This document shows, piece after piece, positions 6,345 to 35,293 of a stretch of DNA of 64,000 nucleotides (position 1 is the first letter of the stretch; the number at the start of each line of letters is the position of its first letter). Both the position numbers and the translations under genes were made by a program. Source of the DNA: Elusimicrobiota bacterium (lineage in GTDB: Bacteria; Elusimicrobiota; Elusimicrobia; UBA1565; UBA9628); NCBI GenBank assembly GCA_016182905.1, contig JACPFR010000005.1:140185-204184 (forward strand), written 5' to 3'. A model generated the notes under the pieces. It was not told where the DNA came from, searched no databases, and saw only the letters and a program-made list of their open reading frames with translations.

Positions 6345-7070
6345 ATGATCGTCGCGGCGCATCAACCGAATTTCATCCCGTGGCTCGGATATTTCGACAA
6401 GATGAGCAAGGCCGACCTCTTCATCGTCGTCGATCACGTCCAGATGGAGCGGCAGAGCTACCAGAACCGCGTGCGGATCAAGACGGGAGCGGGTGAGCGC
6501 TGGATCACGGTGCCGGTCGTCCAGGAGTCCCGGTCCGAGCGCATCATGGACAAGCGCATCGACAACAGCCGCTCCGGCCGCTTCCGGTGGAGCCGCAAGA
6601 TGTTCCTCACCCTCAAGTACGCCTACCAGTCGGCGCCGCACTTCCGGGACTACGAGCCCGCCCTCGCCGAGATCTTCGAGACGCGCTGGGAGCTCCTGAG
6701 CGGCCTCAACGGACGGCTCATCGAGTTCTGCCGCGAGGCTCTCGAGATCCGCACGCCGATGGTGCGCAGCTCCACCCTCGCCGTCGCGGGCTCGAAATCC
6801 GACCTGGTCCTCAATATGTGCCGGGAGACCGGGGCGACGGCCTACCTCGCCGGGGACGGGGCCTCGCGGGGCTATCTGGACGTGGACGCGTTCGAGCGGG
6901 CGGGGATACGCGTGCACTGGCAGGAATTCGAGCATCCGCGCTACCGGCAGCATCCGTCCAGCGAGGTCTTCATCCCGAACCTGTCGACGTTCGATCTGCT
7001 GTTCAATTGCGGGTCCCGGAGCGCTCAGATCCTGCGCGGGGAACGGGTCCGCGGGGGGGTCCTCGTATGA
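6345..7070 (+). CDS. WbqC family protein
   Basis: 241 residues, ATG preceded by GGGAGG. The opening MIVAAHQPNFIPWLGYFDKM is the hallmark of the WbqC-like family (AAHQPxYxPWxGyf), followed by ADLFIVVDHVQMERQSYQNR and WITVPV. Family members occur in O-antigen and glycan loci and in amino-sugar modification clusters; their reaction has not been established to my knowledge. The stop overlaps the ATG of the PIG-L deacetylase gene by ATGA, so the two are translationally coupled, and the glutamine-synthetase homologue follows. Together these look like a glycan-decoration cassette (deacetylation followed by modification of an amine), which is inference from gene order. Confidence 0.85.
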   Translation: MIVAAHQPNFIPWLGYFDKMSKADLFIVVDHVQMERQSYQNRVRIKTGAGERWITVPVVQESRSERIMDKRIDNSRSGRFRWSRKMFLTLKYAYQSAPHFRDYEPALAEIFETRWELLSGLNGRLIEFCREALEIRTPMVRSSTLAVAGSKSDLVLNMCRETGATAYLAGDGASRGYLDVDAFERAGIRVHWQEFEHPRYRQHPSSEVFIPNLSTFDLLFNCGSRSAQILRGERVRGGVLV

Positions 7071-7744
7071 CCGTGAGCGTCCTGGAGCGGGCGGCGCCCG
7101 GGCGGGCCGATCTCTTGAGCAAGTACGCGGGCCAGACCGTGATCGCGGTCGGCGCCCATCCCGACGACCTCGAGCTCGGCTGCGGCGGCACTTTGGCCCG
7201 CCTGAGCCGTGCCGGCGCCCGCGTCGTGATGGTGGTGGTGAGCATACCCAGCAGCCTGCGCTCGCGCCGCCTCGAGGCGATGAAGGCGGCCGAGATACTC
7301 GGGTGCGAGGTCCGTTTCCTGACGCCCAACAAGTGCTGCCGGGTCGAGGACCTCAAGACGCATCAGCTGGTCGGCATGATCGACGCCCTCGTCAAGGAAC
7401 TCGAGCCGGCGGCGATGTTCTGCCATTGCCTGGCGAACCTGCATCTCGACCACAAGCTGGTCTACGAGGCCTGCATGGCCAGCCAGCGGCTGCGTTACTT
7501 CGACATCTTCTGCTACTCTCCGACGAGCTGCCACGCCGTGAACATCGCCTTCTATCCGCACGCCTACATCGACATCTCGGACACGATCGAGGAGAAGATG
7601 CGGGCGATCCGAGTCCATTCGAGCCAGTTCGACGCGCGCGGCCTGAACACCGAGCGCTACCGCGAGGTCGACGGGAACATGGGAAAGATCGTGGGCGTGA
7701 AGTACGCCGAGGGCGTGGAAATCATCCGCATGAAAGTCAATTAG
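7067..7744 (+). CDS. PIG-L/LmbE family deacetylase
   Basis: 225 residues; ATG overlaps the upstream stop (ATGA). Zn-binding motif AHPDDLELGCGG (about residues 26-37; H-P-D-D) and the third ligand region CLANLHLDHKLVYEA (H-x-x-H) are both present, so an active Zn-dependent N-deacetylase is likely. Family substrates are N-acetyl amino sugars, for example GlcNAc-PI, GlcNAc-Ins or UDP-linked sugars. The cysteine-rich stretch CCRVEDLKTHQ at about residues 87-97 is not a family signature that I know. It lies between the WbqC-like gene and a small protein/glutamine-synthetase-like pair in one probable operon. Substrate unknown. Confidence 0.88.
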   Translation: MTVSVLERAAPGRADLLSKYAGQTVIAVGAHPDDLELGCGGTLARLSRAGARVVMVVVSIPSSLRSRRLEAMKAAEILGCEVRFLTPNKCCRVEDLKTHQLVGMIDALVKELEPAAMFCHCLANLHLDHKLVYEACMASQRLRYFDIFCYSPTSCHAVNIAFYPHAYIDISDTIEEKMRAIRVHSSQFDARGLNTERYREVDGNMGKIVGVKYAEGVEIIRMKVN

Positions 7745-9391: not shown

Positions 9392-10243
9392 ATGCGCCAG
9401 ATCTATGTCGCCGTCATGATGTCCGCGGCCGTGCTGTCCGCCGCGAGCGCCGGAAGCCAAGAGGGCGCCGCGCCGCGGTCGCCTCATAAAGCCCAGTTCG
9501 AACGCGCCTATAAGCTCAAGGAGCAGAAGCGGGACACGCAGGCCCTGGCGGCGTTCAACGCCATACTGCAGAAGGACCCCCGCGATCACGCCGCCCTGAC
9601 CGAGGCCGGCTATCTGCACGCGAGCCTGAAGCAGTACGGCCCCGCGGCCGAGCGCCTGTCGGCCGCGTCGGCGCAGGACCCGGAGAACATGCGGCTGCGC
9701 ATGGACCTGGGCTACGTGCAGCAGGCGCGCAAGCGCTACGCGGAGGCGGACGAGCAGTTCCGGGTCGTCGCGGCGAAGCCCGGCGAGTTCCAGGAGGCGG
9801 CCCAGGGCGCCTCGACGGAGATCCATCGCCTCCTCGCGGCGGGGGACCCGTCCGAAGCGAAGCGCCGGCGGGCGATGGAGCGCGGCTACGCGGCCTTGAA
9901 CCGGGGAGCGAAGGCGGCGGCCCGCAAGGAGTTCGCGGCCGTCCTCGCCGCCGATCCCAAGGACGAGGCGGCCCGCAAGCAGCTCGGGTTCCTCAACTTC
10001 GAGGCGGGCCGGTTCGCCGAGGCCGCGGCCGACTTCGAGGCGGTCCGCGCGCTGCGCCCGAACGACTACCTCGTCGTGCTGCAGCTCGGCTACACGTACG
10101 AGCGCCTGAAGAAGAAGGAGCAGGCCCGTCAGGCGTTCTCCGCGGCGCTCGACAGCACCGACGCGAGGATCCACGACGCGGCCCAGACCGCGCTGCAGGC
10201 GTCCGGCGGCGCGCCGAAGCCCGCTCCGGCCTCGTCCCTGTAG
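9392..10243 (+). CDS. Periplasmic TPR-repeat protein
   Basis: 283 residues; ATG at 9392 chosen for the AGGAGAAG upstream and the following signal peptide (MRQIYVAVMMSAAVLSAASA). The mature part is a string of tetratricopeptide repeats from about residue 35 (AYKLKEQKRDTQALAAFNAI, LRMDLGYVQQARKRYAEAD, ARKQLGFLNFEAGRFAEAAA, LQLGYTYERLKKKEQARQAF). It is paralogous to the N-terminal half of the disrupted NfrA-like gene just downstream: both contain LRM[DE]LGY followed by KPGEFQE or KEPGEFQE. Probably a scaffold in the envelope polysaccharide machinery. Its own promoter and terminator make it a separate transcript. Confidence 0.75.
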   Translation: MRQIYVAVMMSAAVLSAASAGSQEGAAPRSPHKAQFERAYKLKEQKRDTQALAAFNAILQKDPRDHAALTEAGYLHASLKQYGPAAERLSAASAQDPENMRLRMDLGYVQQARKRYAEADEQFRVVAAKPGEFQEAAQGASTEIHRLLAAGDPSEAKRRRAMERGYAALNRGAKAAARKEFAAVLAADPKDEAARKQLGFLNFEAGRFAEAAADFEAVRALRPNDYLVVLQLGYTYERLKKKEQARQAFSAALDSTDARIHDAAQTALQASGGAPKPAPASSL

Positions 10244-10262: not shown

Positions 10263-10301
10263 GGCCGGTCCGGCTCCGCGCCGGGCCGGCCTCTCTTTTT
10301 T
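10263..10301 (+). terminator. Rho-independent terminator
   Basis: GGCCGGTCCGGC - TCCGC - GCCGGGCCGGCC (12-bp stem, one mismatch) followed by TCTCTTTTTT, 20 nt after the TPR gene stop. Confidence 0.8.
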
Positions 10302-10377: not shown

Positions 10378-11852
10378 GTGAAGATCCCCTCCGAGTGCCG
10401 GATCGGCCTGCTGATCTTCATCCTCGCGAGCGGCGCCGGGCCGGCGGCCGGCGAGGCGCCGTCCGCGGACGTCGACCGGGCGTACGCCGCCCTGCGCGAG
10501 GGCCGGGCGGAGGACGCGGCGGCGCTCCTCGCGAGCGTGCCGCGCGCCGATCCCGCCGCCCGGCTGGCGCGGCACGAGCTCGCCTACCTTCACCTGCGCA
10601 AGAAGGAATGGAAGGAGGCCGTCGCCCTGCTCGGCGAGCTCCTCGACGGCGCGCCCTCGGACGCGCGCCTGCGCATGGAGCTCGGCTACGCGCGCCAGGC
10701 CCTCGGCGACCGGGCCGCGGCCGCGGACGAGTTCGCTCTCGCCGCCAAGGAGCCCGGCGAGTTCCAGGAACAGGCCCGCGCCGCGCTGGCCGGCCTCGCG
10801 GCCGGCCCCTCGGGCGCCGACGGCGGCGAGGCCCTTTCGAACGAAGGCTACGCGCATCTCCGCCGCGCCGACGCCGCGGCCGCCCGCGAGTAGTTCACGA
10901 TGGCCCTGCGCGCCGATCCGGGGCGGACCCTGATCGCCAAGCAGCTGGGCTACATGAGCCTCGCCGACGGGGACAAGTCCGCGGCGGCGGCGCGCCTCGA
11001 GGGCGTGCGGCGCCTGGAGCCCCGTGACTACCAGACCGGTCCGCGGCGCGCAGGGCGCTGGCCGGCTACCGCGGCCGCACGGACCCTCTGTACCTCGACA
11101 TCGAGGCGGCGGCCTGGAGCGCGTCCCGCTTCCCCAACAAGATCGTCTCGCTGGACGCGCGGGCCGGCTGGAAGCCGGATCCGTACGGGCCCCTGTCCGT
11201 CTACTTCGCCGTCCGCGGCGCCCAGGACTCGCGCTCGCGCAGCGGCGCGGCCCCCGAGATCTACGCGGACGACGCCGTGTCGTTCGCCCCGGGGCTCCGG
11301 CTACAGCCTCGCGGCTGGAACACGAGCCTGTCGGCGGAGTGGGGGGTGACGGTCAACCTGATGCTCAGCGACGAGCATCCGGACCGCACGCAGACCGACG
11401 GCCGCGCCGTCCTCGCCGATTACCGGTATTGGAAGGGTCCCGGCCGGCTCTTCTCCGACGCGGGACTCACCCTCGGCTGGTACGGCCGCTACCGCGACAA
11501 CGTCATCGGGACGCTGCGCCTGCGCGGCGGCCTCCGCTTCCATCCGGGACTGCGCACCGCGCTGACCGTCTACGCCCCCGTGAACGCGCACAAGGACGCG
11601 AACCGGGATTTCTTCAACAACCTCGTCGAGGCGGGCGCGGGCGTCGAGCTCCAGCCCTCGACGCGGGTCAACCTGAACGTCCGCGCCGAGTATCTGCGCG
11701 GCGCCTACACCGGGATCGAAGGGCGCGATCCGAACCCCTACCCCGCGCATTACGACGAATTCCGCCTGATGCTCGTGTATTCGGCTCATTTCACCCGCCG
11801 CCCCGACGCCGGCGCGTTCGAGCCGACGCGCCGGCGGAGGCCCGTCTGGTGA
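10378..11852 (+). pseudogene. Disrupted NfrA-like TPR/outer-membrane protein gene
   Basis: From the GTG at 10378 a signal peptide (GLLIFILASGAGPAAG) and TPR repeats paralogous to the preceding gene run to an in-frame TAG at 10891-10893 (codon 172), in the sequence AAARE-stop-FTMALRADPGRTLIAKQLGY, where the paralogue has a Glu codon. The same frame then continues TPR sequence to RRLEPRDYQ near 11034. Coding then resumes in another frame from about 11043 (ALAGYRGRTDPLYLDIEAAA) and runs to 11852 as a beta-rich domain (about 270 residues) resembling the C terminus of phage N4 receptor NfrA. Two lesions, a nonsense codon and a shift of one base back or two forward, break the gene. The stop overlaps the NfrB start (GTGA), as in an intact nfrAB pair. 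Sequencing error is possible; TAG is an ordinary stop elsewhere here. Confidence 0.65.
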
Positions 11853-13774
11853 CGATCGACTTCGGCGCCGTGCTGGTCGCCCTGACGAGCTTCTCGGCGG
11901 TCGCCATCCTCGTCAGCGGCCTCGACGACCTGTTCATCGACGTCTGCTACTACGGCTCCCAGCTGCGGCGGCGCTTCTCCCGCTCGCGGACCGAGGAGGT
12001 CACGGAGGCGGATCTCCGCGCCCTGCCCGAGCAGGGCATCGCGATCATGATCCCCGCGTGGCACGAGGACGCGGTCATCGGACACATGCTGCGCAATACC
12101 CTCGGCACCGTGGAATACGGGAACTACGACATCTTCATCGGCACCTATCCGAACGACGAGGCGACCATGCACGCCGTCGCGGCGGTCGCCGAGTCGGACC
12201 CCCGCGTGCACCGGATCGTCTGCCCGCACGACGGGCCGACCAACAAGGCCGACTGCCTGAACTGGATCATCGAGGGGATCCGCCATTACGACAAGGCGAC
12301 GGGCAAGCGCATCGGCATCCTCATGCTGCACGACTCCGAGGACCTCGTCCATCCGCTCTCCCTCAAGCTGATGAACCGCTGGATCCCCGAGGTCGCCATG
12401 GTCCAGCTGCCGGTGATCCCCTTCGAGTCGGCCGCCGGCGAGATGACGGCCGGGACCTACCTCGACGAGTTCGCCGAGTCCCATCTCAAGGACATGGTGG
12501 TGCGCGAGCGCCTGAGCGGCATGGTCCCCTCGGCGGGCGTGGGCACCGGCTTCTCCCGCGCGGCCATCGAGCGGCTGGCCCTCAAGCACAACAACCAGGT
12601 CTTCAACGTCGGGACCTTCACGGAAGACTACGACCTCGCGTTCCGCCTGAAGGCCATCGGCGAGCGCTCGATGCTGCTGCAGTTCACCGTCGAGCGGACG
12701 CGCGTCGAGGGCGCGAAGCTGCGGGTCGTGCGCGAGCTCGTGGGGACGAGGGAGTATTTCCCCTCGAACTTCTCGGACGCCGTCCGTCAGAAGGCGCGCT
12801 GGACGCTCGGCATCGTCTTCCACGGCTGGCAGCAGCGCGGCTGGGAGGGGGACCTGCCGCTGCGCTACATGATCTGGCGCGACCGCAAGGCGCTGCTGAC
12901 CAACTCGGTCAACATACTCGGCTACCTCCTGCTCCTCGAGGCCGCCGTCGGCCCCTACTGGGACCCGGCCGGCGCCGATCCGGAACGGATCCGGTTCATC
13001 CCGGCCGACGGCTGGGTCTGGAAGGTGATCCTCGTCGACGCGCTCCTCCTGTTCAACCGCTGCGCGCAGCGGGTCGCGTGCGACGCTCGGATCTCCTCCT
13101 GGAAGCAGGCGTGGCTCTCCCTGCCCCGGATCATCTGGGGGAACGTCATCAACTTCTGCGCGGTCGCCCGCGCGACGCACATCTTCGTCCGCAACCGCCT
13201 GACCGGCGAGAAGCTGGTCTGGGCGAAGACGGCGCACGCCTTCCCGAGCGAGGCGCAGCTCCTGGGCTACAAGCGCAAGCTCGGGGACCTCCTTCTCGAG
13301 CAGCGGCGCATCACGCTGTCCCATCTGTCCGAGGCGCTCCGGTCCCAGAAGGAGTCGGGCAAGCGCCTGGGCGACATCCTCGTCGACAGCGGCTTCGCGC
13401 GGGAGAGCGAGATCGTCGAGACGCTGGCGGGCCAGCTGAAGGTGGAGGCGGTGAGGCTGGATCACGCGCGCCTGAGGCGGGAGGACCTGGACCTCATCAG
13501 CGAGTGCGCCTGCCGCGAGCACCTGATGGTCGTCGCCGACGGGCGCGCGCGGCCGGTCGTCATCGCCGCCGCCGTGATAAACGACGAGCGGATGAAGGGC
13601 TGGCTCGACGCGAACTTCCCTCACCCTTACCGGCTCGTGCTGGCCGGGCGCCGCGCCATCGTCGAGGTCATCGACCGCGCGCGCGAGGCCCGCGAGCGCG
13701 AGGGCCTGCCCGTGCACCGGCACCCCCACGGCGCGGCGGTCCCCGCGCGCGCGCCGGAGGGGACGCTTCATTGA
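11849..13774 (+). CDS. nfrB: NfrB-like glycosyltransferase with C-terminal MshEN domain
   Basis: 641 residues from the GTG at 11849, overlapping the upstream stop. One N-terminal membrane segment (ALTSFSAVAILVSGL) precedes a family 2 glycosyltransferase domain: IAIMIPAWHEDAVIGHML, HDSED (161-165), TFTEDYDLAFRL and the processive Q-x-x-R-W-type QKARWTLG. Two or more membrane helices follow (LLTNSVNILGYLLLLEAA, VILVDALLLF). From about residue 475 an MshEN (GspE N-terminal) module holds two RLGxxL...Q repeats, KLGDLLLEQRRITLSHLSEA and KRLGDILVDSGFARESEIVE. In E. coli NfrB this module binds c-di-GMP and controls synthesis of a ManNAc-containing surface glycan that phage N4 uses. The neighbour wecB supplies UDP-ManNAc, so the same pathway is likely here. 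Confidence 0.85.
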   Translation: MTIDFGAVLVALTSFSAVAILVSGLDDLFIDVCYYGSQLRRRFSRSRTEEVTEADLRALPEQGIAIMIPAWHEDAVIGHMLRNTLGTVEYGNYDIFIGTYPNDEATMHAVAAVAESDPRVHRIVCPHDGPTNKADCLNWIIEGIRHYDKATGKRIGILMLHDSEDLVHPLSLKLMNRWIPEVAMVQLPVIPFESAAGEMTAGTYLDEFAESHLKDMVVRERLSGMVPSAGVGTGFSRAAIERLALKHNNQVFNVGTFTEDYDLAFRLKAIGERSMLLQFTVERTRVEGAKLRVVRELVGTREYFPSNFSDAVRQKARWTLGIVFHGWQQRGWEGDLPLRYMIWRDRKALLTNSVNILGYLLLLEAAVGPYWDPAGADPERIRFIPADGWVWKVILVDALLLFNRCAQRVACDARISSWKQAWLSLPRIIWGNVINFCAVARATHIFVRNRLTGEKLVWAKTAHAFPSEAQLLGYKRKLGDLLLEQRRITLSHLSEALRSQKESGKRLGDILVDSGFARESEIVETLAGQLKVEAVRLDHARLRREDLDLISECACREHLMVVADGRARPVVIAAAVINDERMKGWLDANFPHPYRLVLAGRRAIVEVIDRAREAREREGLPVHRHPHGAAVPARAPEGTLH

Positions 13775-13786
13775 ACAGGAGACACC

Positions 13787-14962
13787 GTGAATAAGCCCGT
13801 CATCCTCGCCGTGTTCGGGACCCGGCCCGAGGCCATCAAGCTCGCGCCCGTCGTCCGCGCGCTCCGCGCGCGGACGGACCTGACGACCCGCCTGTGCGTG
13901 ACCGCCCAGCACCGGCAGATGCTGGACCGCATGCTCGCGAACTTCGGCCTGCGTCCGGATTTCGACCTGGACCTGATGCAGGCGAACCAGGATCTCAACG
14001 GCTTCTCCGCGCGCGCGCTGCCGCGCCTGCAGGAGGTGCTGCGGCGCCTGCGCCCCGACTTCGTCCTCGTCCAGGGAGACACGACGACGGCCTTCGTCAC
14101 CGCGCTGGCCGCGTTCTACGAGCGCGTGCCCGTCGGTCACGTCGAGGCGGGCCTGCGGTCCTTCGACCGCGGCAATCCGTATCCCGAGGAGACCAATCGC
14201 GTCATGATCTCGCGCCTCAGCGACCTGCATTTCGTCCCGACCCGGGCCGCCCTCGAGAACCTGCTCGCCGAGGGGATCCCCCGGGCGAACATCGTCCAGA
14301 CCGGCAACACCGTGGTGGACGCCTTGCTGCACGATGGCGCGGGGACGCGGGGCTTCGCCGCGCCCGAGCTCCGGAGCGCCGTCGCCGCGATGCGCGACGG
14401 CGACAAGGCGGTCGTCGTCACGACCCATCGCCGGGAGAACTTCGGCCGTCCCCTCGAGTCGCTGTGCGAGGCGTTCCGGATCCTGGTCGAGAGGCATCCG
14501 CGCCTGCATCTGTTCTACCCGGTCCACATGAACCCCAAGGTCGCGGACGTCGTGCGTCGCCGCCTGCGCCACCCGCGCGCGCACCTCCTCCCCGCGCTCG
14601 ACTACTTCGACCTGATCGAGCTCATGCGCATGAGCTCCTTCGTGCTGACGGACTCGGGGGGGCTCCAGGAGGAGGCGCCGTCGCTCGGCAAGCCCGTCGT
14701 GGTCCTGCGCAAGGTGACCGAGAGGCCCGAGGCGGTCAGCGCCGGCGCGGCCGTCCTCGCCGGCACGCGGACGCGGGACGTCGTCCGCGCGGCCTCGCGC
14801 CTGCTGCGCGACGAGGCGCATCACGCGTCGATGTCGGGAGGCGCGGGGATCTTCGGGGACGGACGGGCGAGCGAGCGCATCGTCGGGAGCGTGCGTCATT
14901 ATCTCGGCCTCGCCCGACGGCGCCCGGCGGGTTTCGAGCCCGTCACGAGGGCGACAAAATGA
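13787..14962 (+). CDS. wecB: UDP-N-acetylglucosamine 2-epimerase (non-hydrolysing)
   Basis: 391 residues; GTG start with AGGAG six bases upstream, 12 nt after nfrB. Family signatures: VFGTRPEAIKLAPVV at the N terminus, HVEAGLRSFDR with the catalytic acid, ETNRVMIS, TTHRRENFG, and DSGGLQEEAPSLGKPVVVLR with TERPEAV (UDP binding). It interconverts UDP-GlcNAc and UDP-ManNAc in the cytoplasm. Position directly after nfrB fits E. coli knowledge that the NfrB glycan needs WecB. The nucleotide-sugar dehydrogenase gene at the window edge could draw on the same UDP-ManNAc. Full length and all key blocks present. Confidence 0.93.
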   Translation: MNKPVILAVFGTRPEAIKLAPVVRALRARTDLTTRLCVTAQHRQMLDRMLANFGLRPDFDLDLMQANQDLNGFSARALPRLQEVLRRLRPDFVLVQGDTTTAFVTALAAFYERVPVGHVEAGLRSFDRGNPYPEETNRVMISRLSDLHFVPTRAALENLLAEGIPRANIVQTGNTVVDALLHDGAGTRGFAAPELRSAVAAMRDGDKAVVVTTHRRENFGRPLESLCEAFRILVERHPRLHLFYPVHMNPKVADVVRRRLRHPRAHLLPALDYFDLIELMRMSSFVLTDSGGLQEEAPSLGKPVVVLRKVTERPEAVSAGAAVLAGTRTRDVVRAASRLLRDEAHHASMSGGAGIFGDGRASERIVGSVRHYLGLARRRPAGFEPVTRATK

Positions 14963-14964
14963 CT

Positions 14965-15008
14965 TCACCCCGCCTCCATGGCCACGCGCTCGGCGCGACG
15001 AATATACT
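14965..15008 (+). promoter_or_regulatory. Promoter of the PilZ-GT2 operon (TNAC/ATGG class)
   Basis: TCAC (14965-14968), CCCGCCTCC, ATGG (14978-14981), 21 nt, TATACT (15003-15008). Predicted transcription start is the A of the ATG at 15015; no Shine-Dalgarno, so leaderless. Confidence 0.55.
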
Positions 15009-15014
15009 ACGCCC

Positions 15015-16649
15015 ATGAATCCGCAGACACAGACGCACCAGGAGCCGGAGACGTCTCAGCCGGTCCAGGCTGCGGGATTCAGGGAGAAGCGGCGGCACGC
15101 CCGGACGAGCGAGCGCTTCCCCGTGACGGTCGTCTCCTCCGGCGGCCTCCTGCGGTCCGCCACCTTGACCGGGGAGGCGAGGGATCACGATCAGGCCGGT
15201 CTCTGCGTGACGGTCAGCCGGCCGCTCGCGATCGGCACGGCCGTGCGCATCCGGATGCATCTCTCCAAGTCGATCTCGCCCTTCTTCAGGGGGCTGCCCT
15301 GCGAGCTCCGCGGCCGCGTGACCGCCGCGCGCAAGGTGAAGTCCAAGGGCCAGCACGCCTGCGAGCTCGTCCTGAAGTGGGACCGCCCCTTGCCCGAGCT
15401 CGTGGCCGGGGCGGTCGCCTCTTATCAGAGGAAGATCGCCGTGCTCATCGGACTCGTCCTGGCGGCGCTCGTCTGGAGCAAATGGCAGAGTCTCGATTTC
15501 TTCTGGTATGCGCCGGTCTTCTACGTCTACAGCCTGACCGTGGCGCTGTACCTCCTCTCGCGCTTCTGGATCTCCTGGCGCCATCGCGCGCCGGTCCTGG
15601 GCAGCTACACTCCCAGCGTCAGCATCGTCATCTCCGTGCGCAACGAGGAGAACGCGATCACCCGCACCGTGGAGACCTGCTTCGAGACGGACTATCCGTC
15701 GGACAAGCGGGAGATCCTCGTCGTCAACGACGGCTCGACCGACGGCACGCTGCGCGTGCTCCGCGAGCTCCAGAAGAGGTTCCCGGCGCTCCAGGTCTTC
15801 ACCCAGCCGCCCACCGGGAAGCGCGCCGCGATGGCCCAGGGGGTGCGCCACGCCAAGGGCGAGATCATCACCTTCGTGGACTCGGACACCTTCCTTTTCC
15901 GCGACGCGCTGCGCCACATCGTCTGCGGCTTCGAGGACCCGACGCTCGGGGCCTCGGCGGGCTACACCGAGGTCGAGAACTGCAACGTCAACGCGCTGAC
16001 CGGGCTGCAGGAGATCCGTTATTACGTCTCCTTCCGCCTGCTGAAGGCCTCGGAGGGGTTTTACGCCGCCGTGACCTGCTGCCCGGGGTGCCTCTCGGCC
16101 TACCGGCGGAAATACGTCCTGGAGATACTCGACCCCTGGCTCAACCAGCGCTTCCTGGGCGCCGAGGCGACCTTCGGCGACGACCGCAGCCTGACGAACT
16201 TCATCCTGCGCAAGTACCGGGTGATCTACAACGACCTCGCCGTCGCGTCGACCTTGGTGCCGGAGACGTGGGGCCAATACCTGCGCCAGCAGCTGCGCTG
16301 GAAGAAGTCCTGGCTGCGGGAGACCTTGATCGCGGGGCGCTTCATGTACAAGAAGCACCCCGTCGCGGCGGCCTCGTTCTACGCCTCGTCGATCATCAGC
16401 GTCGCCTCGCCGGCGATGGCCGCGCGCGTGGCCTACCTGGCCGCGCACGGCGAATCCTCGATGCTCCTCCCTTATCTGGTCGGCCTGCTCCTCATCGGCT
16501 TCCTCCAATCCCTCTACTTCCTCCATCGGCGTCCGAGCCCTCACTGGCTGCTGGGCATGCTGTGGATGGCGAGCGCCCTGTTCATCACCGGGCCTCAGAC
16601 CTACTACGCGCTCCTGACGGTGCGCAAGAACCACTGGGGCACGCGATGA
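15015..16649 (+). CDS. PilZ-domain processive glycosyltransferase (polysaccharide synthase)
   Basis: 544 residues. The N-terminal region (about 24-125) is a PilZ-like domain, with the arginine motif EKRRHAR at 24-30; the second c-di-GMP motif (D/N-x-S-x-x-G) reads DHDQAG at 57-62, so its Ser is missing. Two membrane helices (about 141-155 and 163-186) precede a GT2 domain of the hyaluronan/chitin/poly-GlcNAc synthase type: SVSIVISVRNEEN (201-213), VVNDGSTDGT, FVDSDTF (D289, D291), GDDRS (388-392) and QQLRW (425-429). C-terminal helices form the channel (LLPYLVGLLLIGFLQSLYFL). It starts an operon coupled by ATGA overlap to a deacetylase-like gene and the PgaA/PgaB-like fusion, so a (partly deacetylated) beta-linked hexosamine polymer is the likely product. 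Confidence 0.88.
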   Translation: MNPQTQTHQEPETSQPVQAAGFREKRRHARTSERFPVTVVSSGGLLRSATLTGEARDHDQAGLCVTVSRPLAIGTAVRIRMHLSKSISPFFRGLPCELRGRVTAARKVKSKGQHACELVLKWDRPLPELVAGAVASYQRKIAVLIGLVLAALVWSKWQSLDFFWYAPVFYVYSLTVALYLLSRFWISWRHRAPVLGSYTPSVSIVISVRNEENAITRTVETCFETDYPSDKREILVVNDGSTDGTLRVLRELQKRFPALQVFTQPPTGKRAAMAQGVRHAKGEIITFVDSDTFLFRDALRHIVCGFEDPTLGASAGYTEVENCNVNALTGLQEIRYYVSFRLLKASEGFYAAVTCCPGCLSAYRRKYVLEILDPWLNQRFLGAEATFGDDRSLTNFILRKYRVIYNDLAVASTLVPETWGQYLRQQLRWKKSWLRETLIAGRFMYKKHPVAAASFYASSIISVASPAMAARVAYLAAHGESSMLLPYLVGLLLIGFLQSLYFLHRRPSPHWLLGMLWMASALFITGPQTYYALLTVRKNHWGTR

Positions 16650-18460
16650 AAAAATCATACGCCTTCGCCTGGCTGGCGATCTTCGGCTGCGCCGGCTTCG
16701 CCCTGTTCTGGGGCCTTCACGGCCGGGCGTTCGTGCGGCGCACGTATCACGCCCCCCGCTCCGTCGCGGCGGAGGCGAGGACCGAGTCCCAATTCGTCGC
16801 GATCCTGATCCCGCGCGTGCGGCGCGACCGCGAGAGGTTCGTGATATCCGCCGCGGACCTCGAGGCGATCCTGCTCCCGCTGAAGAAGTCGGGCCACACG
16901 GCGATCGGGCTCGCCGACGTCGAGGCGCTCTACTCCCGGGGCGCCGCGCTGCCGCCGAAGGCGCTGCTGATCGCCTTCGCCGAGAACGAGCCGCGCGGCT
17001 ACGAGCTGACCGACCGCGTGCTCAAGCGGCTGGGCATGCGCGGGGTCGCGTTCATCCAGAAGACGGCGGAGGAGGCCGGCGGGGAGCATCGCCAGCACCT
17101 GACCCGCCACGCCGTCTCCCAGATGCGGCTGGGCGGAGCCTGGGATCTCGGCTGGACGGCGAAGGACGCGCCGGACGCGGCCGCGGCGGCGCTCGGCGGA
17201 CGCGCGCTCCTCGCGCAGGCGGGCGCCCCGCCCGAGGCGAACGACCAGGCCCTGTACCCGCTGCGCTTCACGGCCTCGGAGATGGGGCTCAACGACCGCC
17301 GCGACGATCCGCGCGCGCTGCGCCTTCTCGCGCTCCGCGCGGACCGCGCGCCGGCCGACAACGCCCTCATCGTCCAGAAGACCTGGCCCCGCGCAGCGGA
17401 GCTGACCGAGGATTTCCGCGCGGACGGCACGGGCACCGACTGGATCGCGGGGTGGGGCGTCGTCTCGATGGGGCACCGGCGCCTGGCGCTGCTGCCGACC
17501 CCGAGGCACACGAGCGCCGGCGTCTTCCTGAGAGGGACGGAGAAATGGCGCGACGCCACCGTGGAGTTCGTCCTGAAGAGGTATCAGAAGGAGTTCTGGG
17601 CCTACGCCCGCCTTCGCGAGGACGGCGGCTTCGTGCGCGTCGGCGCGCGCGACGGCTGGTGGTACGTGGAGCAGAAGGCGGGCCCGGCGAAGCCCGTGAA
17701 CATGCTCGCTCGGACCCCGATCCTCGACGGCAGCCTGCCCGCCCGGGTCCGCTTCGTCGTCAAGGGCGGCTCGGCGCTCGTCTACATCAACGGCCGGATG
17801 CAGTTCGGCCGCGCGCTGCGCCTCCACCCCGGCGTCGACCGGGGCCAGCTCTTCCTCGGCGTGTACGACGCCCGCTCTCGGAACTCGCTGGCGGTCCTCA
17901 CCTCGGTCCGCGCCGCGCCGCTGGGAGAGGTCTGGGTCACGTCCAAGGGCGACGTCCGCCGGGAGTTCGACGAGGCGCGCCTGGACTCGCTGCGCGACGA
18001 GGCGGCGTACGCCCGCGCCCTGTCGCCGCGCTGGATCACGGTCGCGCCGGACGGCGGCGTGCTCCTCGACGAGACTCAGGGGGGGCTGGTGCGCTCGATG
18101 GCCGGGTTCTATGCCTGCCGTCTCGTGCCGACGGCGGATTTCTCCGAGGTCCGGGCGTCGGTTCTGGGCCACGCCGGGGCCGCCGACCGGCTGGCGGGCG
18201 GCCTGGTCAGCGCGGCGCGCGAGCTGGGCGCGGCCGGCCTCAATCTCCGCCTGCGGCCGGACCAGGCCGGGAGGCCCGAGACTCTCGCCTTCCTGCGCAA
18301 GCTCCGCGACGGCCTGCACGCGCAGAGCGGGGAGCTGCGGGTGACCTTGCTCGGCGGCGGCGCCCCGGAGGGCGCCCTGGCGCTCGCGACGGACGGCGTG
18401 CTGCGCCTCTCCGCGAAGAGCCGTCAGTCCCTTGAGCTTCTGGAGGCGGTGCAGCCATGA
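16646..18460 (+). CDS. Polysaccharide-deacetylase-like protein without catalytic Asp pair, with jelly-roll domain
   Basis: 604 residues, ATGA overlap with the synthase gene. One N-terminal membrane anchor (AFAWLAIFGCAGFALFWGLH). Residues about 50-150 follow the NodB deacetylase pattern: FVAILIPRV, a helix, TAIGLADVEALYSRGAALPP, KALLIAFAENEPRGYELTDR, LKRLGMRGVAFI; but the metal-binding T-F-D-D-G is AFAEN (about 108-112), so the first catalytic motif is gone. Residues about 245-410 resemble a LamG/3-keto-disaccharide hydrolase jelly roll (GWGVVSMGHRRLALLP, GVFLRGTEKWRDATVEFVLK, RVGARDGWWYVEQKAG). The C-terminal 130 residues are alpha/beta (LGAAGLNLRLRP). Likely a periplasmic polymer-binding partner of the synthase and exporter rather than an enzyme. 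Confidence 0.65.
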   Translation: MKKSYAFAWLAIFGCAGFALFWGLHGRAFVRRTYHAPRSVAAEARTESQFVAILIPRVRRDRERFVISAADLEAILLPLKKSGHTAIGLADVEALYSRGAALPPKALLIAFAENEPRGYELTDRVLKRLGMRGVAFIQKTAEEAGGEHRQHLTRHAVSQMRLGGAWDLGWTAKDAPDAAAAALGGRALLAQAGAPPEANDQALYPLRFTASEMGLNDRRDDPRALRLLALRADRAPADNALIVQKTWPRAAELTEDFRADGTGTDWIAGWGVVSMGHRRLALLPTPRHTSAGVFLRGTEKWRDATVEFVLKRYQKEFWAYARLREDGGFVRVGARDGWWYVEQKAGPAKPVNMLARTPILDGSLPARVRFVVKGGSALVYINGRMQFGRALRLHPGVDRGQLFLGVYDARSRNSLAVLTSVRAAPLGEVWVTSKGDVRREFDEARLDSLRDEAAYARALSPRWITVAPDGGVLLDETQGGLVRSMAGFYACRLVPTADFSEVRASVLGHAGAADRLAGGLVSAARELGAAGLNLRLRPDQAGRPETLAFLRKLRDGLHAQSGELRVTLLGGGAPEGALALATDGVLRLSAKSRQSLELLEAVQP

Positions 18461-21400
18461 TCGATCTCATTCTCCTCGCGGCGCTGGCCGCGGCCGTCCC
18501 CGGGCCCGTCCGGGCCGCCGAGTCGGCTCAGGCCGCCGCGCCCGTCGCCGTCCCCGCCCCCGCCGTCGTGGCCGCCAGCCGGGGGGCGCAGCTGATGTCG
18601 GAGCAGCGCTACCCCGAGGCGATCCCCGTGCTCGAGCGCGAGCTGCGCGCGGACCCGGGCTCGCCGACCATCCTTCTGAACCTCGGCTGGGCCTACTGGC
18701 ACGCCCGCCGCATCGACGACGCCTGGAAGATCGCGGCCACGCTCGTCAAGCTCGACCCCGGCAACCGCGCCTTCCTGATCTTCATGGCGAACACGAGCAT
18801 CGAGAAAGGGGACTACAACCGCGCCATCTCCCTGATGAACCGGGCCCTGAAGCTCTTCGCGCAGGACCACGACGCGTCCTTGGTCCTGGCCCGCGCCCTG
18901 TTCCGGGCCGGGAGAGAGAAGGAGGCTCTGAAGGTCGTCGACGGGGTCCTCGCGCGCCGGCCCGACGACGCGGCCGCGGCCTATCGCCGGGCGGTCTTCT
19001 TGTCCGACCTGGGGCGCAAGAAGGAGGCCCTGGACGCGCTCGAGGCCCTGCTCGCGCGGGAGCCGGAGAACGCGTCCTACCGGCGCAGCCGCGCCCGCAT
19101 CCTCTCCGACATCGGGCGCCAGGCGGAGGCGAAGAGCGAGTGGGGAAACCTGACGCGGGGCCAAACGGACGCGCAGTCCCTGATGAACCTCGGCTGGACG
19201 TACTGGAGGGAAAGGAACCTGGACGCGGCGTGGGAGATCGCCGTGACCTTGGTGAAGCTCGACGACGAGAACCCCGCTTTCCTGCGCTTCATGGCGAACC
19301 TGGAACTCGAGCGGCAGAACTACGACAACGCCCTGGAGCTCGCCCGGAAGACCGTGAAGCTCGCGCCCAAGGACCAGGACGCCTCGCTCACCTTGGCGAA
19401 GGCCCTGTTCCAGCTGCACCGGGCGAAGGAGGCGATGGCCATCCTCCGCGACCTCATCGTCAGGTTCCCGGACAGCCGGTCGGTCCAATACCGCTGGGCC
19501 GAGCTGCTCGCCGGGACGAGGCGCTACAACGAGGCGCTCTACTACTTCGACCGCCTCGTCAAGGCCGACCCCGAAAACGAGACCTACCGCATGAACCGCG
19601 CCACGGTGCTCTACGAGATGGGCCGCTTCGACGACGCCGTCGGCGTGTGGGAGTCCCGGGGCGCGCGCGAGGTCCCCGACGTCAATTCCCTGCGCCGCCT
19701 GCGGGACGACGCCGTGAACCGCCAGGGCTGGGACGACGCCGTTGAATGGCAGCGGAAGCTGATCGCCGCCTCCCCGCGCGATCCCGCGGGCTGGGAGACC
19801 CTGTCCCGGATCTACACGGAGATGAAGCTCCCGTCCAAGGCCCTGTGGGCGGCCGAGCGCGCGATCGTGGTCGACCCGGTCTCGATCAACGCGTACTACA
19901 TGAGAGCCGAGATCCTCGAGGCGATCGGCGATTGGGCCGCGGCCACCGCCGCGTACGAGGAGATCACCCGCCGCAACCCGAACAGCGTCAGGGCCATCGA
20001 CGGCCTCTCGTACACGCTGGAGGCGAACGGGGATTTCGACGGCTCGCTGAAGCAGATCGCGCGCATCGAGGCGCTGATCGCGCCCACGGTCTCCCCGTAC
20101 CTGGAGCTGCACCGGGCGCGCGTGCTCGCCGACTCGGGGCGCCTGAGCCAGGCGCGCCCCATACTCGACCGGCTGGCGAAGGACGAGCGGACGGTGATAC
20201 CGGCGCTCCTGTACCACGGGATCTCGCCGACCCACCGGACGGACTCCATCCCCGTGGAGACGTTCCGCGCCCAGATGCGGGCCCTGAAGAAGAAGGGGTA
20301 TCAGTCGATCACCGCCTCGGAGCTCGCCCTGGCCATGCAGGGGAAGGCCGCCCTGCCCCCCAAGCCCATCCTGATCACCTTCGACGACGGCCGCGCGGAC
20401 TCCTTCGACAACGCGGACCCGGTCCTCCGGGAGACCGGATATCGCGCGACGATGTTCGTGCACGTCTCCCGCCTGCGCAAGCCTTATTTCCACGCCGGCG
20501 CGGAGGACATCGCGCGGTGGGCGTCGACGGGACGCTGGGAGATCCAGGCCCACGGGTCGCAGGCCCATGACCCGATGATCCTCGACGCCTTCGGGCGACG
20601 CGGGCACTTCCTGCCCAACCGCAAGTGGCTCGGCGAAGAGGGCCGTCTCGAGACGCTGTCCGAGTATCAGGACCGGGTCGCCCGGGACTTCGAGGAGGCG
20701 AAGGCCGGCGTCGAGGCCATCGTCCCCGGCCGCCGCGTCGTCGCTTTCGCCTTCCCGTTCGGGGATTACGGCCAGAACGACTACTCGAACACCCCCGAAT
20801 CGGCCGCCATCAACCGGGCGCTCGTGAAGAAGAACTTCCGGCTGGCCTTCGTCCAGGCCCAGCAGGGGATGAACACGCTGTCCTCGAACCCCACGGACCT
20901 GAAGCGCTTCTCGGTGCCCCGCTACATGACGGCCGAGGCGCTCACGGGCCACCTCGCCCTCGGCGACCCGCGCGTCCAGGCGAAGCTGGTGCAGGCGCAG
21001 CTGTGGGTCCGCGCGGAGCAGCTGGGCCGCGCGAACGCGGTCTTCGCCGAGCTGGAGGCGCAGGGCGTCACGGAGCCGCGCATCCTCGCGGAGAAGGCCG
21101 CCTCGTACCAGCGCGGCGGCGACATCTCCTACGCCCGCAACCTCTTCTCCGAGGCGGCGGCGCTGGAGCCGGACAAGGAGGGGCCCGGAGGCGAACGCAC
21201 CCGGACGCAGCTCCTGCAGGCGGAGCACGCGGCCGCGCCGGCGGCGACGGCCGAGGTCCAGCACCTCACGGACAGCGACCGCAACGAGCTGTCGAAGGCG
21301 ATCCTGCGCGGCGGCGGCGTGGTCAAGGCCGTCAGGCTCGAGGGCTGGGTGGGGCAAGGGGAGTACATCGAGAGGCGCGATCCCGCGCTCCCGACGCCCC

Positions 21401-22104
21401 TCATCGTCGGCCGCGAAGGCGGAGCGGCGCTGCGCTGGTTCGCGCTGCCGGAGCTCGAGCTCGGCGGCTTCTACGCCCGCCGGGAATTCTCGCGCGGCGC
21501 GACGGGGTCCGCCGACAACTACTCCTTGGCCGCGGGCTGGCAGGCGGTCCCGGCGCTGAAGCTGACGGTCCGCGACGGGCTGAGCAACGTCGAGACGGCG
21601 GCCGGGATCCGGAACTCCCGGAGATTCCACACCAACGGCGGCGGAGCCGTCTGGGACCCGGCGCTGAACTGGCGGGTCAACGCGGACTACGACCAGAACC
21701 GCTACAACGACTCGAACCTTCAGCAGGACGTCCGCGTGCGCCTGACGAGGATATTCTCCGAGCGGGCGTCCGTCGGCTTCGCCTATTTCCACGGCGAAGC
21801 GAAGTCGAGCCGGCCCGAGTACTACACGCCGCGCCGCCTGAACCAGTACTCGGGCGTCGTCACCCTCCGGGAGACTTTCGGCGCCATCAACCCCCGCACG
21901 GGCCGCGCCCGGGCGGACGCGCTGCTCCTGTACGAGGGCGGCTACGGCCTGCAGCCGGAGGGCTCCCGCCGCGTCCACTCCGTGCGGGCGGGGTTCGGGA
22001 TCAGCCTGATCGATTCCGTCGCCGTGAGGCTCGGCGGCCAGTACTCGGAGTCGCCGACCTACATCAGCCGGCGCGCCGAGGGCTCCCTCGCGGTGAGCTT
22101 CTAG
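18457..22104 (+). CDS. TPR / NodB deacetylase / outer-membrane barrel fusion (PgaA-PgaB-like)
   Basis: 1215 residues, ATGA overlap with the upstream gene. Signal peptide (MIDLILLAALAAAVPGPVRA), then about a dozen TPR repeats to about residue 565 (for example LNLGWAYWHARRIDDAWKIA and a near copy at about 245). A NodB polysaccharide deacetylase domain follows, about 578-835: ALLYHGISP, ITFDDGRADSF with the Asp pair (about 642-643), QAHGSQAHDP with the His motif, and FAFPFGDYG. A short TPR-like linker leads to a C-terminal beta-barrel-like domain from about 945 ending in RAEGSLAVSF with a terminal Phe. This combines in one chain the work of PgaA (TPR plus export porin) and PgaB (deacetylase) of poly-GlcNAc systems. 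With the synthase two genes upstream it should complete synthesis, deacetylation and export. Confidence 0.85.
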   Translation: MIDLILLAALAAAVPGPVRAAESAQAAAPVAVPAPAVVAASRGAQLMSEQRYPEAIPVLERELRADPGSPTILLNLGWAYWHARRIDDAWKIAATLVKLDPGNRAFLIFMANTSIEKGDYNRAISLMNRALKLFAQDHDASLVLARALFRAGREKEALKVVDGVLARRPDDAAAAYRRAVFLSDLGRKKEALDALEALLAREPENASYRRSRARILSDIGRQAEAKSEWGNLTRGQTDAQSLMNLGWTYWRERNLDAAWEIAVTLVKLDDENPAFLRFMANLELERQNYDNALELARKTVKLAPKDQDASLTLAKALFQLHRAKEAMAILRDLIVRFPDSRSVQYRWAELLAGTRRYNEALYYFDRLVKADPENETYRMNRATVLYEMGRFDDAVGVWESRGAREVPDVNSLRRLRDDAVNRQGWDDAVEWQRKLIAASPRDPAGWETLSRIYTEMKLPSKALWAAERAIVVDPVSINAYYMRAEILEAIGDWAAATAAYEEITRRNPNSVRAIDGLSYTLEANGDFDGSLKQIARIEALIAPTVSPYLELHRARVLADSGRLSQARPILDRLAKDERTVIPALLYHGISPTHRTDSIPVETFRAQMRALKKKGYQSITASELALAMQGKAALPPKPILITFDDGRADSFDNADPVLRETGYRATMFVHVSRLRKPYFHAGAEDIARWASTGRWEIQAHGSQAHDPMILDAFGRRGHFLPNRKWLGEEGRLETLSEYQDRVARDFEEAKAGVEAIVPGRRVVAFAFPFGDYGQNDYSNTPESAAINRALVKKNFRLAFVQAQQGMNTLSSNPTDLKRFSVPRYMTAEALTGHLALGDPRVQAKLVQAQLWVRAEQLGRANAVFAELEAQGVTEPRILAEKAASYQRGGDISYARNLFSEAAALEPDKEGPGGERTRTQLLQAEHAAAPAATAEVQHLTDSDRNELSKAILRGGGVVKAVRLEGWVGQGEYIERRDPALPTPLIVGREGGAALRWFALPELELGGFYARREFSRGATGSADNYSLAAGWQAVPALKLTVRDGLSNVETAAGIRNSRRFHTNGGGAVWDPALNWRVNADYDQNRYNDSNLQQDVRVRLTRIFSERASVGFAYFHGEAKSSRPEYYTPRRLNQYSGVVTLRETFGAINPRTGRARADALLLYEGGYGLQPEGSRRVHSVRAGFGISLIDSVAVRLGGQYSESPTYISRRAEGSLAVSF

Positions 22105-22134
22105 CCGCCGGCGCGCGGGACGGCTCAGATGTCC

Positions 22135-22165
22135 GTGGCGCTCCGGCCGTGTTATTTTTTATGAT
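22135..22165 (+). promoter_or_regulatory. Promoter of PhoB-like regulator gene (ATGG class)
   Basis: GTGG (22135-22138), 21 nt, TATGAT (22160-22165); TCCGTGGCGC is the same as in the promoter at 35296, but the upstream TNAC is absent. Transcription start estimated 3 nt before the ATG at 22175. Confidence 0.45.
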
Positions 22166-22174
22166 AGCGGCCGG

Positions 22175-22846
22175 ATGGCCACGATATTCGTCATCGACGA
22201 CGAGAAGGACCTGGTCCGCCTCCTCCGTCACAACCTGGAGAAGGGCGGCTACAAGGTCGTCTCGGCCCCCAGCGCCGAGTCCGGGCTCAAGAAGATCCGC
22301 GAGTCGAACCCCGACCTCCTGATCCTGGACATCATGCTTCCCGGGATGGACGGGCTGGAGTTCCTGCGGACCCTGCGCGGCGAGAGCGACGTCCCCGTGA
22401 TCCTGCTGAGCGCCAAGGGCAGCGAGCTCGACCGCGTCCTGGGCCTCAAGCTCGGCGCGGACGACTACATGATCAAGCCGTTCAGCATGGCCGAGCTGCT
22501 GGCGCGCGTCGCCGCGCGCCTGCGCAAGCCTTCCGCGCCGAAGGGGGGGAGGAACGCGGCGATCGGCCCGCTCGCCGTGGACTTCGCGCGCCACGAGGTC
22601 ACGGTCGAAGGCCGGCCGGTGAAGCTGGCCACGAAGGAGTTCCGGGTGCTGGAGCTCCTGCTCGAGGCGGACGGCAAGGTCCTCACCCGGGACGCCCTGC
22701 TGCAGCTGGTCTGGGAGCACGACGCGGGCCTGGACCTCGACACGCGGACCGTCGACCAGCACATCGCGCGCCTGCGCCGGAAGCTCGGCGCCGCGGGCAG
22801 GCTGATCGCGACCGTGCCGAACTTCGGCTACAAGCTCGCGCGCTGA
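22175..22846 (+). CDS. OmpR/PhoB-family response regulator
   Basis: 223 residues. Receiver domain (1-120) with IFVIDDEKDLVRLL (acidic pocket), phospho-acceptor Asp in LLILDIMLPGMDGLEF, Ser/Thr in LLSAKGS and Lys in DYMIKPFSMAEL. C-terminal winged-helix DNA-binding domain (about 130-223) with FRVLELLLEADGKVLTRDAL, the recognition region TRTVDQHIARLRRKLG, and the wing TVPNFGYKL. No kinase gene is adjacent in the same direction; it is a close paralogue of the regulator at 24377, sharing GLEFLRT[LI]R and TRTVDQHIARLRRKLG. Follows the exopolysaccharide operon by 70 nt but has its own promoter. Predicted to be almost leaderless. Confidence 0.92.
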   Translation: MATIFVIDDEKDLVRLLRHNLEKGGYKVVSAPSAESGLKKIRESNPDLLILDIMLPGMDGLEFLRTLRGESDVPVILLSAKGSELDRVLGLKLGADDYMIKPFSMAELLARVAARLRKPSAPKGGRNAAIGPLAVDFARHEVTVEGRPVKLATKEFRVLELLLEADGKVLTRDALLQLVWEHDAGLDLDTRTVDQHIARLRRKLGAAGRLIATVPNFGYKLAR

Positions 22847-34144: not shown

Positions 34145-35293
34145 ATGGGCGTACACCTGCTGTACTTCCGCTACGCCGGGGCCGAGCGCTTCGGCTTGAT
34201 CCACGGAGGGAAGGTCGCGCGCTTCGCGCTCGCGGACGTGGCGCGCCGCTTCGCCGCGGCGGCGCGCTCGCTGCTGCGCCAGCACGCGGTCCTGTCTCCG
34301 CTGGAGTCGCCTCGGCCGGGGGTCTGGGCGATCGCCTTCGAGTTGAAGCCCCTCGAGATCGAGGCGGACGAGCGGGAACAGCTGGAGTCGATCGCCGCCG
34401 CCGGCCGGGTGCTCGCGGTCGAGGCGCTGGCCGACGAGCTGGGCTCGGCCGTCGCGCTTCACGCCGGGCTCGAGGTCGGGACCGTCCCCGTCGAGAAGGA
34501 AGACTCCCGGGACCGGCGGACCGCGAAGCTGCTGGCCCGCCTTCGCCGCGCGGGGCCCGCGCGGGCCGGCGCCTCGACGGGGGAGCGCGCGCTCGTGCTC
34601 GGGATCGTGCGCGGTCCTCTGACGATCTACCGGCAGAGGATCGTCTCGCTCGCCAGCGGCGAGACCGCGGCGTACGAGGCGCTCCTTCGGGGGCCGCCCG
34701 GCGGGTCGCTGCGCCGTCCCGAGCTGCTGCTCGCGGAGGCCGCCCGCTTCGGACGACTCGAGGAGCTGGAGCTCGCCGCCCTCGACGCGGCGCTCGCGGC
34801 GGCGCGGCGCCTGCCGTTCCCGCTGCGGCTCGCGGTGAACCTGTCCCCGGGCCTGTTCGGGGGGCCCGCGCTGCGGCGGATCGCGGACGAGCCGGACCTG
34901 CCTGGGCGCCTCATCTTCGAGATCACGGAGCATCTCCCGATACCGTCTCCCGGGCGGCTGAACCGGGCCTTGAGGCTTCTCCGCGGGCGCGGGGCGCAGA
35001 TCGCCCTCGACGACGCCGGCTGCGGCTACCTGAACATGGAGCTCGTTCGGGCGCTCCGGCCGGACATCGTCAAGCTGTGCATCACCCTCACGCGCCGGCT
35101 CGGGAAGGCCCCCGGCACCGTCCCCCTGGTGCGGCGGACCGTCGCCGCGCTCGGGGCGGCCGGGGCCCTGGCCCTCGCCGAGGGCGTCGAGACCGCCGAG
35201 CAGGCCCGTCTGGCGCTCGAGTGCGGCTGCGACCTGGCTCAGGGGTGGTATTTCGGCCGGCCCCGGCCGGCCTTCACGGCGCCGAGAAGATAA
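34145..35293 (+). CDS. EAL-domain cyclic-di-GMP phosphodiesterase
   Basis: 382 residues. Residues 1-150 are an unrecognised N-terminal region (YFRYAGAERFGLIHGGKVAR). The EAL domain spans about 158-380 and keeps the catalytic set in order: YEALLRG (EAL motif), AVNLSP (Asn), FEITEHL (Glu), ALDDAGCGYLNMEL (the D-D pair; D-D-F-G-T-G-Y in the family), PDIVKLC (Lys), AEGVETAEQ (Glu) and AQGWYFGRP (Gln). Hydrolysis of c-di-GMP to pGpG is therefore likely. It could oppose activation of the NfrB (MshEN) and PilZ-GT2 synthases at 12-16 kb. No GGDEF partner in the window. Predicted near-leaderless. Confidence 0.87.
   Translation: MGVHLLYFRYAGAERFGLIHGGKVARFALADVARRFAAAARSLLRQHAVLSPLESPRPGVWAIAFELKPLEIEADEREQLESIAAAGRVLAVEALADELGSAVALHAGLEVGTVPVEKEDSRDRRTAKLLARLRRAGPARAGASTGERALVLGIVRGPLTIYRQRIVSLASGETAAYEALLRGPPGGSLRRPELLLAEAARFGRLEELELAALDAALAAARRLPFPLRLAVNLSPGLFGGPALRRIADEPDLPGRLIFEITEHLPIPSPGRLNRALRLLRGRGAQIALDDAGCGYLNMELVRALRPDIVKLCITLTRRLGKAPGTVPLVRRTVAALGAAGALALAEGVETAEQARLALECGCDLAQGWYFGRPRPAFTAPRR

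Follow-up and report, generated by a model that had tools for sequence, protein, structure and literature searches.

Among the described systems closest to the locus reported here is the Nfr/N4 glycan receptor system of E. coli. In the available text of two studies on it (PMC8669469, PMC8669472), c-di-GMP binding was measured for NfrB, its glycosyltransferase residues and several residues of its MshEN module (motif described in PMC5013675) were needed for phage N4 infection, and wecB was encoded beside nfrB in several species. The available text of PMC8669469 places NfrB homologues mainly in proteobacteria and describes them as rare elsewhere. Further points of comparison are the PNAG system pgaABCD, which combines a GT2 polymerase, a PgaB-like CE4 deacetylase and a TPR protein with a 16-strand pore; the hyaluronan synthases (HAS) and NodC; BcsA, in which PilZ and GT2 occur in one synthase; and Zymomonas BcsZC, an earlier case in which one protein joins an enzyme to a pore (PMC7112194).

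The DNA analysed is a stretch of 64,000 nucleotides, referred to as the window, from contig C5 of an Elusimicrobiota MAG (G000; 3.98 Mb, 63 contigs, 97% complete). The relatives in the named genome collection that carry the same operon are likewise Elusimicrobiota MAGs, and groundwater is the source of several. Gene calls and family searches gave the following plus-strand order: a TPR protein, a broken nfrA, nfrB, wecB, a PilZ-GT2 synthase, a protein that matches no Pfam or NCBIfam model, a TPR-deacetylase-pore fusion and response regulators. The locus is a real, conserved and new combination whose parts are of known kinds. Its first unit, the nfr cassette, comprises:

9392..10243, plus strand: gene for a secreted TPR protein, with which the cassette begins in relatives too (TPR Pfam matches; same position in G045, G042 and G011)
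10378..11852, plus strand: nfrA-type gene (TPR and C-terminal barrel), broken (three-frame reading; alignment with G009 and G045)
11849..13774, plus strand: nfrB, GT2 synthase with a C-terminal MshEN c-di-GMP module (NF012033 over cut-off)
13277..13435, plus strand: MshEN c-di-GMP motif, two 24-residue halves, NfrB residues 477-529 (NF053729)
13787..14962, plus strand: wecB, non-hydrolysing UDP-GlcNAc 2-epimerase (TIGR00236)

A preliminary description of this DNA had proposed an NfrB carrying MshEN in cis with WecB beside it, and NCBIfam profile searches bore this out. NfrB scored 595 bits against the family model NF012033 (cut-off 537), and did not reach the E. coli-type model NF008411 (489 bits against a cut-off of 1170), sharing 34% identity with E. 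coli NfrB. The DxD, TED and QxxRW motifs were kept, with D162, E164, D260 and W318 aligning to E. coli D169, E171, D267 and W330. The MshEN module scored 56.7 bits against NF053729 (cut-off 38), and all seven residues checked (L478, G479, L493, L497, L507, G508 and L526) matched the E. coli protein. Because these residues are kept, and in view of the binding and mutation results for E. coli NfrB, in-cis control of NfrB by c-di-GMP is well supported by inference. The adjacent WecB scored 426 bits against TIGR00236 (cut-off 210), as expected for the epimerase of an Nfr-type system. Elsewhere, G132 encodes a 473-aa NfrB homologue (L054:7395-8816) whose reading frame stops short of the MshEN module, with a WecB homologue adjoining; from its sequence it seems to be an Nfr-type synthase without its c-di-GMP part.

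The interval described earlier as NfrB-WecB began at 10378. The genes are present, but the stretch at that position is the nfrA-type gene, and an intact NfrA there is ruled out by two lesions in this single MAG assembly: an in-frame TAG stop at 10891-10893, which reads AAG in G009, and the out-of-frame loss of 97 bp at approximately 11041/11042 relative to G009 and G045. A genome-wide search found no second nfrA copy elsewhere in the assembly, so this genome lacks the intact outer-membrane TPR-barrel protein of an Nfr export system. A TPR and barrel gene lies directly 5' of nfrB in G009 (partial contig), G045, G042 and G107, and its frame is open in G045, G042 and, as far as the contig reaches, G009. 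Since the barrel has no detectable sequence likeness to E. coli NfrA, the similarity being at the level of the TPRs only, we assigned NfrA by architecture and position. The cassette thus resembles the E. coli system, as far as the available text of the two studies describes it, in its GT2 and MshEN architecture with all checked residues, in the adjoining wecB and in the TPR-barrel gene beside nfrB. It differs in NfrB identity, in the order nfrA-nfrB-wecB, in the barrel sequence, in the broken nfrA and in its Elusimicrobiota host.

The second unit, operon 2, follows directly:

15015..16649, plus strand: PilZ-GT2 synthase, HAS/NodC-like (GT2 Pfam matches; best solved relatives hyaluronan synthases)
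15084..15347, plus strand: degenerate PilZ domain, R26xxxR30 and D57-H-D59-Q-A-G62 (profile match and alignment)
16646..18460, plus strand: membrane-anchored protein with a degenerate PgaB-like CE4 domain, a jelly-roll middle and a GH18-like C-terminus (PDB profile match, model and fold search)
18457..22104, plus strand: fusion of TPR, active-type CE4 deacetylase, TPR and 16-strand outer-membrane barrel (Pfam, model and fold search)
22175..22846, plus strand: OmpR-type response regulator, behind the operon also in G001 and G007

This unit had been described as a HAS/poly-GlcNAc-type synthase accompanied by genes for deacetylation and export, and the family matches, the HAS relatives, the PgaB-like CE4 domain and the pore fold agree with that. 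Among proteins of solved structure, the synthase comes nearest to the hyaluronan synthases (E 5e-52), and it shares the GDDR-LTN and Q--RW region with HAS and NodC. It remained below the cut-offs for both PNAG PgaC (TIGR03937, 103 bits against 422) and NodC (151 bits against 550), and is set apart from HAS and NodC by its N-terminal PilZ domain and its deacetylase-pore partner. PVC and CPR bacteria and one archaeal record (L065-L094) hold relatives in which the match leaves out the PilZ part and the next gene encodes a PgaB-like deacetylase.

The 604-aa protein encoded next had been called deacetylase-like. It is a conserved protein without a Pfam or NCBIfam match, and a PDB profile search returned a weak PgaB match at positions 50-134 (E 2e-5). 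The CE4 catalytic motifs are missing, which rules out an active deacetylase. Its predicted structure (mean pLDDT 72) shows the jelly-roll and a GH18-like part. Deacetylase genes of PVC genomes, such as L069 and L070, align with parts of this protein.

The 1215-aa fusion, proposed earlier as an export/deacetylase fusion and matched by the Pfam models Polysacc_deac_1 and TPR, keeps the PgaB-type catalytic motifs ITFDDG and HGSQAH, while as a whole protein it falls below the curated PgaB cut-off. In the predicted structure of its C-terminal 656 residues (pLDDT 82), a CE4 domain is accompanied by a barrel of 16 strands, giving a PgaA-like TPR and pore. Fold matches were PgaB (target TM-score 0.76), PelB, BcsC and the polysaccharide outer-membrane secretin 4y25. 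Operon 2 therefore has the GT2 polymerase, the CE4 deacetylase and the TPR and pore of pgaABCD, but differs in a synthase nearer to HAS/NodC than to PgaC, in deacetylase and pore forming one chain, in having no pgaD-sized gene among its three genes and in the PilZ domain on the synthase. Zymomonas BcsZC carries a different enzyme on its pore, and in the literature searched we found no earlier description of the one deacetylase-pore fusion.

Both synthases had been proposed to sense c-di-GMP in cis. The intact MshEN motif supports this for NfrB, whereas the PilZ motif of the second synthase is degenerate throughout the order. A PilZ-like match is present at the N-terminus of the GT2 protein, although its score is at the detection limit (19.2 and 22.8 bits in two Pfam searches, cut-off 22.5); in BcsA, by contrast, the PilZ domain is C-terminal and canonical. 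The RxxxR motif is kept (R26xxxR30), and the (D/N)xSxxG motif reads DHDQAG, retaining Asp57 and Gly62 with Asp59 in place of the serine. It is possible, with slightly less than even weight, that this domain no longer binds c-di-GMP and serves structure or protein contact, leaving NfrB as the only c-di-GMP-gated synthase. Besides the marginal score, this reading is favoured by the replacement of the motif serine, by Asp or something else, in every sequence of the order except that of G052 (which reads SYSAQG, with the Ser and without the Asp), by the canonical motif, DISSTG or NLSATG with RxxxR, being confined to G059 and an Omnitrophota relative, and by the loss of RxxxR in several paralogues. 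Against it stands the retention of R26, R30, D57 and G62: in FilZ, alanine at the equivalent positions abolished c-di-GMP binding, and the motif serine is not among the predicted ligand-contact residues (PMC10304486), so a Ser-to-Asp change need not abolish binding. Judged from its sequence, c-di-GMP sensing by this PilZ domain is plausible rather than established.

Three sequence features bear on transcription of the two units:

10263..10291, plus strand: terminator-like hairpin in the gap that separates nfrA from the preceding TPR gene (12-pair GC stem and T run)
14955..15014, plus strand: predicted promoter footprint of the PilZ-synthase operon, CAAAATGAnTTCAC-N7-CCATGGC-N~18-TATACT (phylogenetic conservation)
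22134..22151, plus strand: weak terminator-like hairpin after the PilZ-synthase operon

Since the region holds no more terminator-like hairpins than expected (4 found against 4.0 in shuffles), the case for the hairpin before nfrA rests on conservation, a similar one being present at the equivalent place in G045. The footprint lies just 5' of the synthase gene in six genomes (this one, G009, G001, G007, G042 and G045, more loosely in the last two), including G007 with no nfr cassette, and also precedes the displaced synthase of G011. Given the footprint before the synthase and the hairpin before nfrA, the two units look separately transcribed.

The units recur together in related genomes. The earlier interpretation thereby passes the refuting condition set for it, a lack of such recurrence, and a pairing unique to this locus is ruled out. 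Among 341 genomes of the phylum, NfrB was present in 10, the PilZ-synthase in 16 and both in 7, in six of which they are neighbours. This co-occurrence is far above chance (hypergeometric P 1.3e-8 when genomes are counted and 1e-3 at genus level, without correction for shared ancestry). The order from nfrB and wecB to the PilZ-GT2 gene and onward is found in G000, G001, G045 and G042; in G009 a contig break falls inside wecB, and the wecB tail adjoins the synthase on the other contig. The units nevertheless come apart, since G011 has its PilZ-synthase 283 kb away and G007, of the same genus, keeps the flanking genes and operon 2 and lacks exactly the four nfr genes. G059, from another family, carries both units in a divergent layout. 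In the synthase tree the G059 sequence clusters with the one from Omnitrophota (100/99 support), so the pairing there may have arisen independently of the others. A small test, run with no positive control, detected no NfrB in the Omnitrophota genome or in four other genomes with related synthases.

Computation shows which genes are present, their motifs and predicted folds, the lesions in nfrA, and the conservation of both the adjacency and the footprint. Substrates, polymer, c-di-GMP gating and regulation of both operons we infer as follows. We consider it fairly probable that the locus holds two separately transcribed synthase-dependent exopolysaccharide operons side by side, the first an Nfr-type unit without a pore in this genome and the second PNAG/HAS-like. 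In the first, WecB would convert UDP-GlcNAc to UDP-ManNAc, NfrB would polymerise ManNAc across the inner membrane once c-di-GMP binds its MshEN module, and NfrA would be the export pore. With nfrA broken, the unit would be idle, decaying or using another exit. In the second, the PilZ-GT2 synthase would build its polymer from UDP-GlcNAc and possibly one more sugar, and would probably be regulated by its PilZ domain, possibly through c-di-GMP. The chain would be guided by the membrane-anchored protein, whose deacetylase domain is dead, while its partial de-N-acetylation and its export would fall to the deacetylase-pore, a single protein. The earlier picture of two working c-di-GMP machines is thus only partly supported: both gene sets are present, but the nfrA lesions leave the first unit without its own pore, so that this is not a fully intact twin system.

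Those lesions would also suit the first unit being a decaying relic, in which nfrA was lost first, nfrB and wecB persist because the loss is recent, and only operon 2 works. The clean absence of the whole cassette from G007, and the presence of NfrB in only 4 of 19 same-genus genomes, the host included, point the same way as the two lesions. However, the nfrB and wecB frames are intact with all checked catalytic and c-di-GMP residues kept, and their pN/pS relative to G009 (0.22 and 0.26), which shows both to be constrained, is an average over the entire branch and gives no date for the loss of nfrA. We regard decay as possible if somewhat doubtful. Both genes stay intact beside a broken nfrA, so they may serve a purpose left unnamed by the two-operon account.

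A second alternative concerns the adjacency, which could reflect nothing more than an ancestral gene order, the units being functionally unconnected. In its favour are the promoter footprints, which are separate, and the losses, which are independent, whereas the pairing in G059, with its Omnitrophota-type synthase and its units divergent rather than in the same order, speaks against it. We hold simple inheritance as a tentative explanation. The adjacency persists at 60-70% protein identity and appears again in G059; this suggests more than coincidence between two independent units and weighs against the two-operon account.

Less likely is one composite machine, in which the ManNAc polymer of NfrB would be exported and partly deacetylated by the operon 2 deacetylase-pore, one exit serving two polymers or a mixed one. 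It would account for the loss of nfrA beside intact nfrB and wecB, for the co-occurrence above chance (with the ancestry caveat given) and for G011, where the deacetylase-like gene and deacetylase-pore stay directly behind nfrB and wecB with the synthase far off. Yet G011 carries likely sequencing frameshifts, nfrA is open in the relatives named above, and G007, G025, G037 and G052 possess operon 2 but no nfr genes. The bolder version, in which two synthases with different types of regulatory domain share the fused deacetylase-pore as a single exit for ManNAc- and GlcNAc-based chains and the loss of nfrA completed the merger, we judge slightly more improbable again. The natural variants (G007 without the cassette, G011 with its synthase moved, nfrA broken here) make a shared exit testable by comparison.

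The two-operon reading, which we prefer, places Nfr-type c-di-GMP-gated polymer synthesis in the Elusimicrobiota, outside the proteobacteria that account for most published cases, and sets the Nfr unit repeatedly beside a second synthase operon in which one protein combines the deacetylase with the outer-membrane pore. Such a neighbour is not reported for nfr loci in the available text of PMC8669469 and PMC8669472. The preliminary description regarded the exact combination as undescribed. A literature search that left out most subscription journals found no earlier description of it, but NfrB beside WecB was already published in those two studies. A text search combining Elusimicrobiota, exopolysaccharide and c-di-GMP gave nothing relevant by title and abstract.

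An EAL gene near 34.1 kb, suggested earlier as a switch for both synthases, is present:

34145..35293, plus strand: EAL-domain phosphodiesterase (PF00563, 134 bits; EAL motif kept)

The genome has ten GGDEF matches, two EAL matches (one being this gene) and at least one HD-GYP-like gene. As the EAL gene is 12 kb away with no evident tie to the locus, and an HD-GYP-like gene lies elsewhere, its switching of both synthases stays a guess.

Near the locus, a nucleotide-sugar dehydrogenase at 1-337, its start outside the window (TIGR03026, 413 bits), and a GlmU-like gene at 4203-5462 (310 bits, cut-off 367) could possibly provide sugar nucleotides for the locus. Hyaluronan was not adopted as the product, the UDP-sugar dehydrogenase at the left edge being a general nucleotide-sugar dehydrogenase that also occurs in G007 and is untied to operon 2. 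At 7067-7744 a PIG-L type de-N-acetylase gene lies beside WbqC-like and glutamine-synthetase-like genes, an order kept upstream in several relatives.

Finally, the pattern AAAAT-N4-TCAC-N7-CnATGGC occurs at four sites in G000, three exact and one with a mismatch, and a reversed-pattern control gave 0. The sites are 14955-15014 of the window, C5:34380-34407 (minus strand), C5:132651-132678 (plus strand) and C9:134985-135011 (plus strand), and all four have a -10-like box a similar distance downstream. Behind them lie the PilZ-synthase, an HD-GYP-like gene, a gene for a secreted unknown protein and one reading like a glycogen debranching enzyme, which may possibly form a small regulon.
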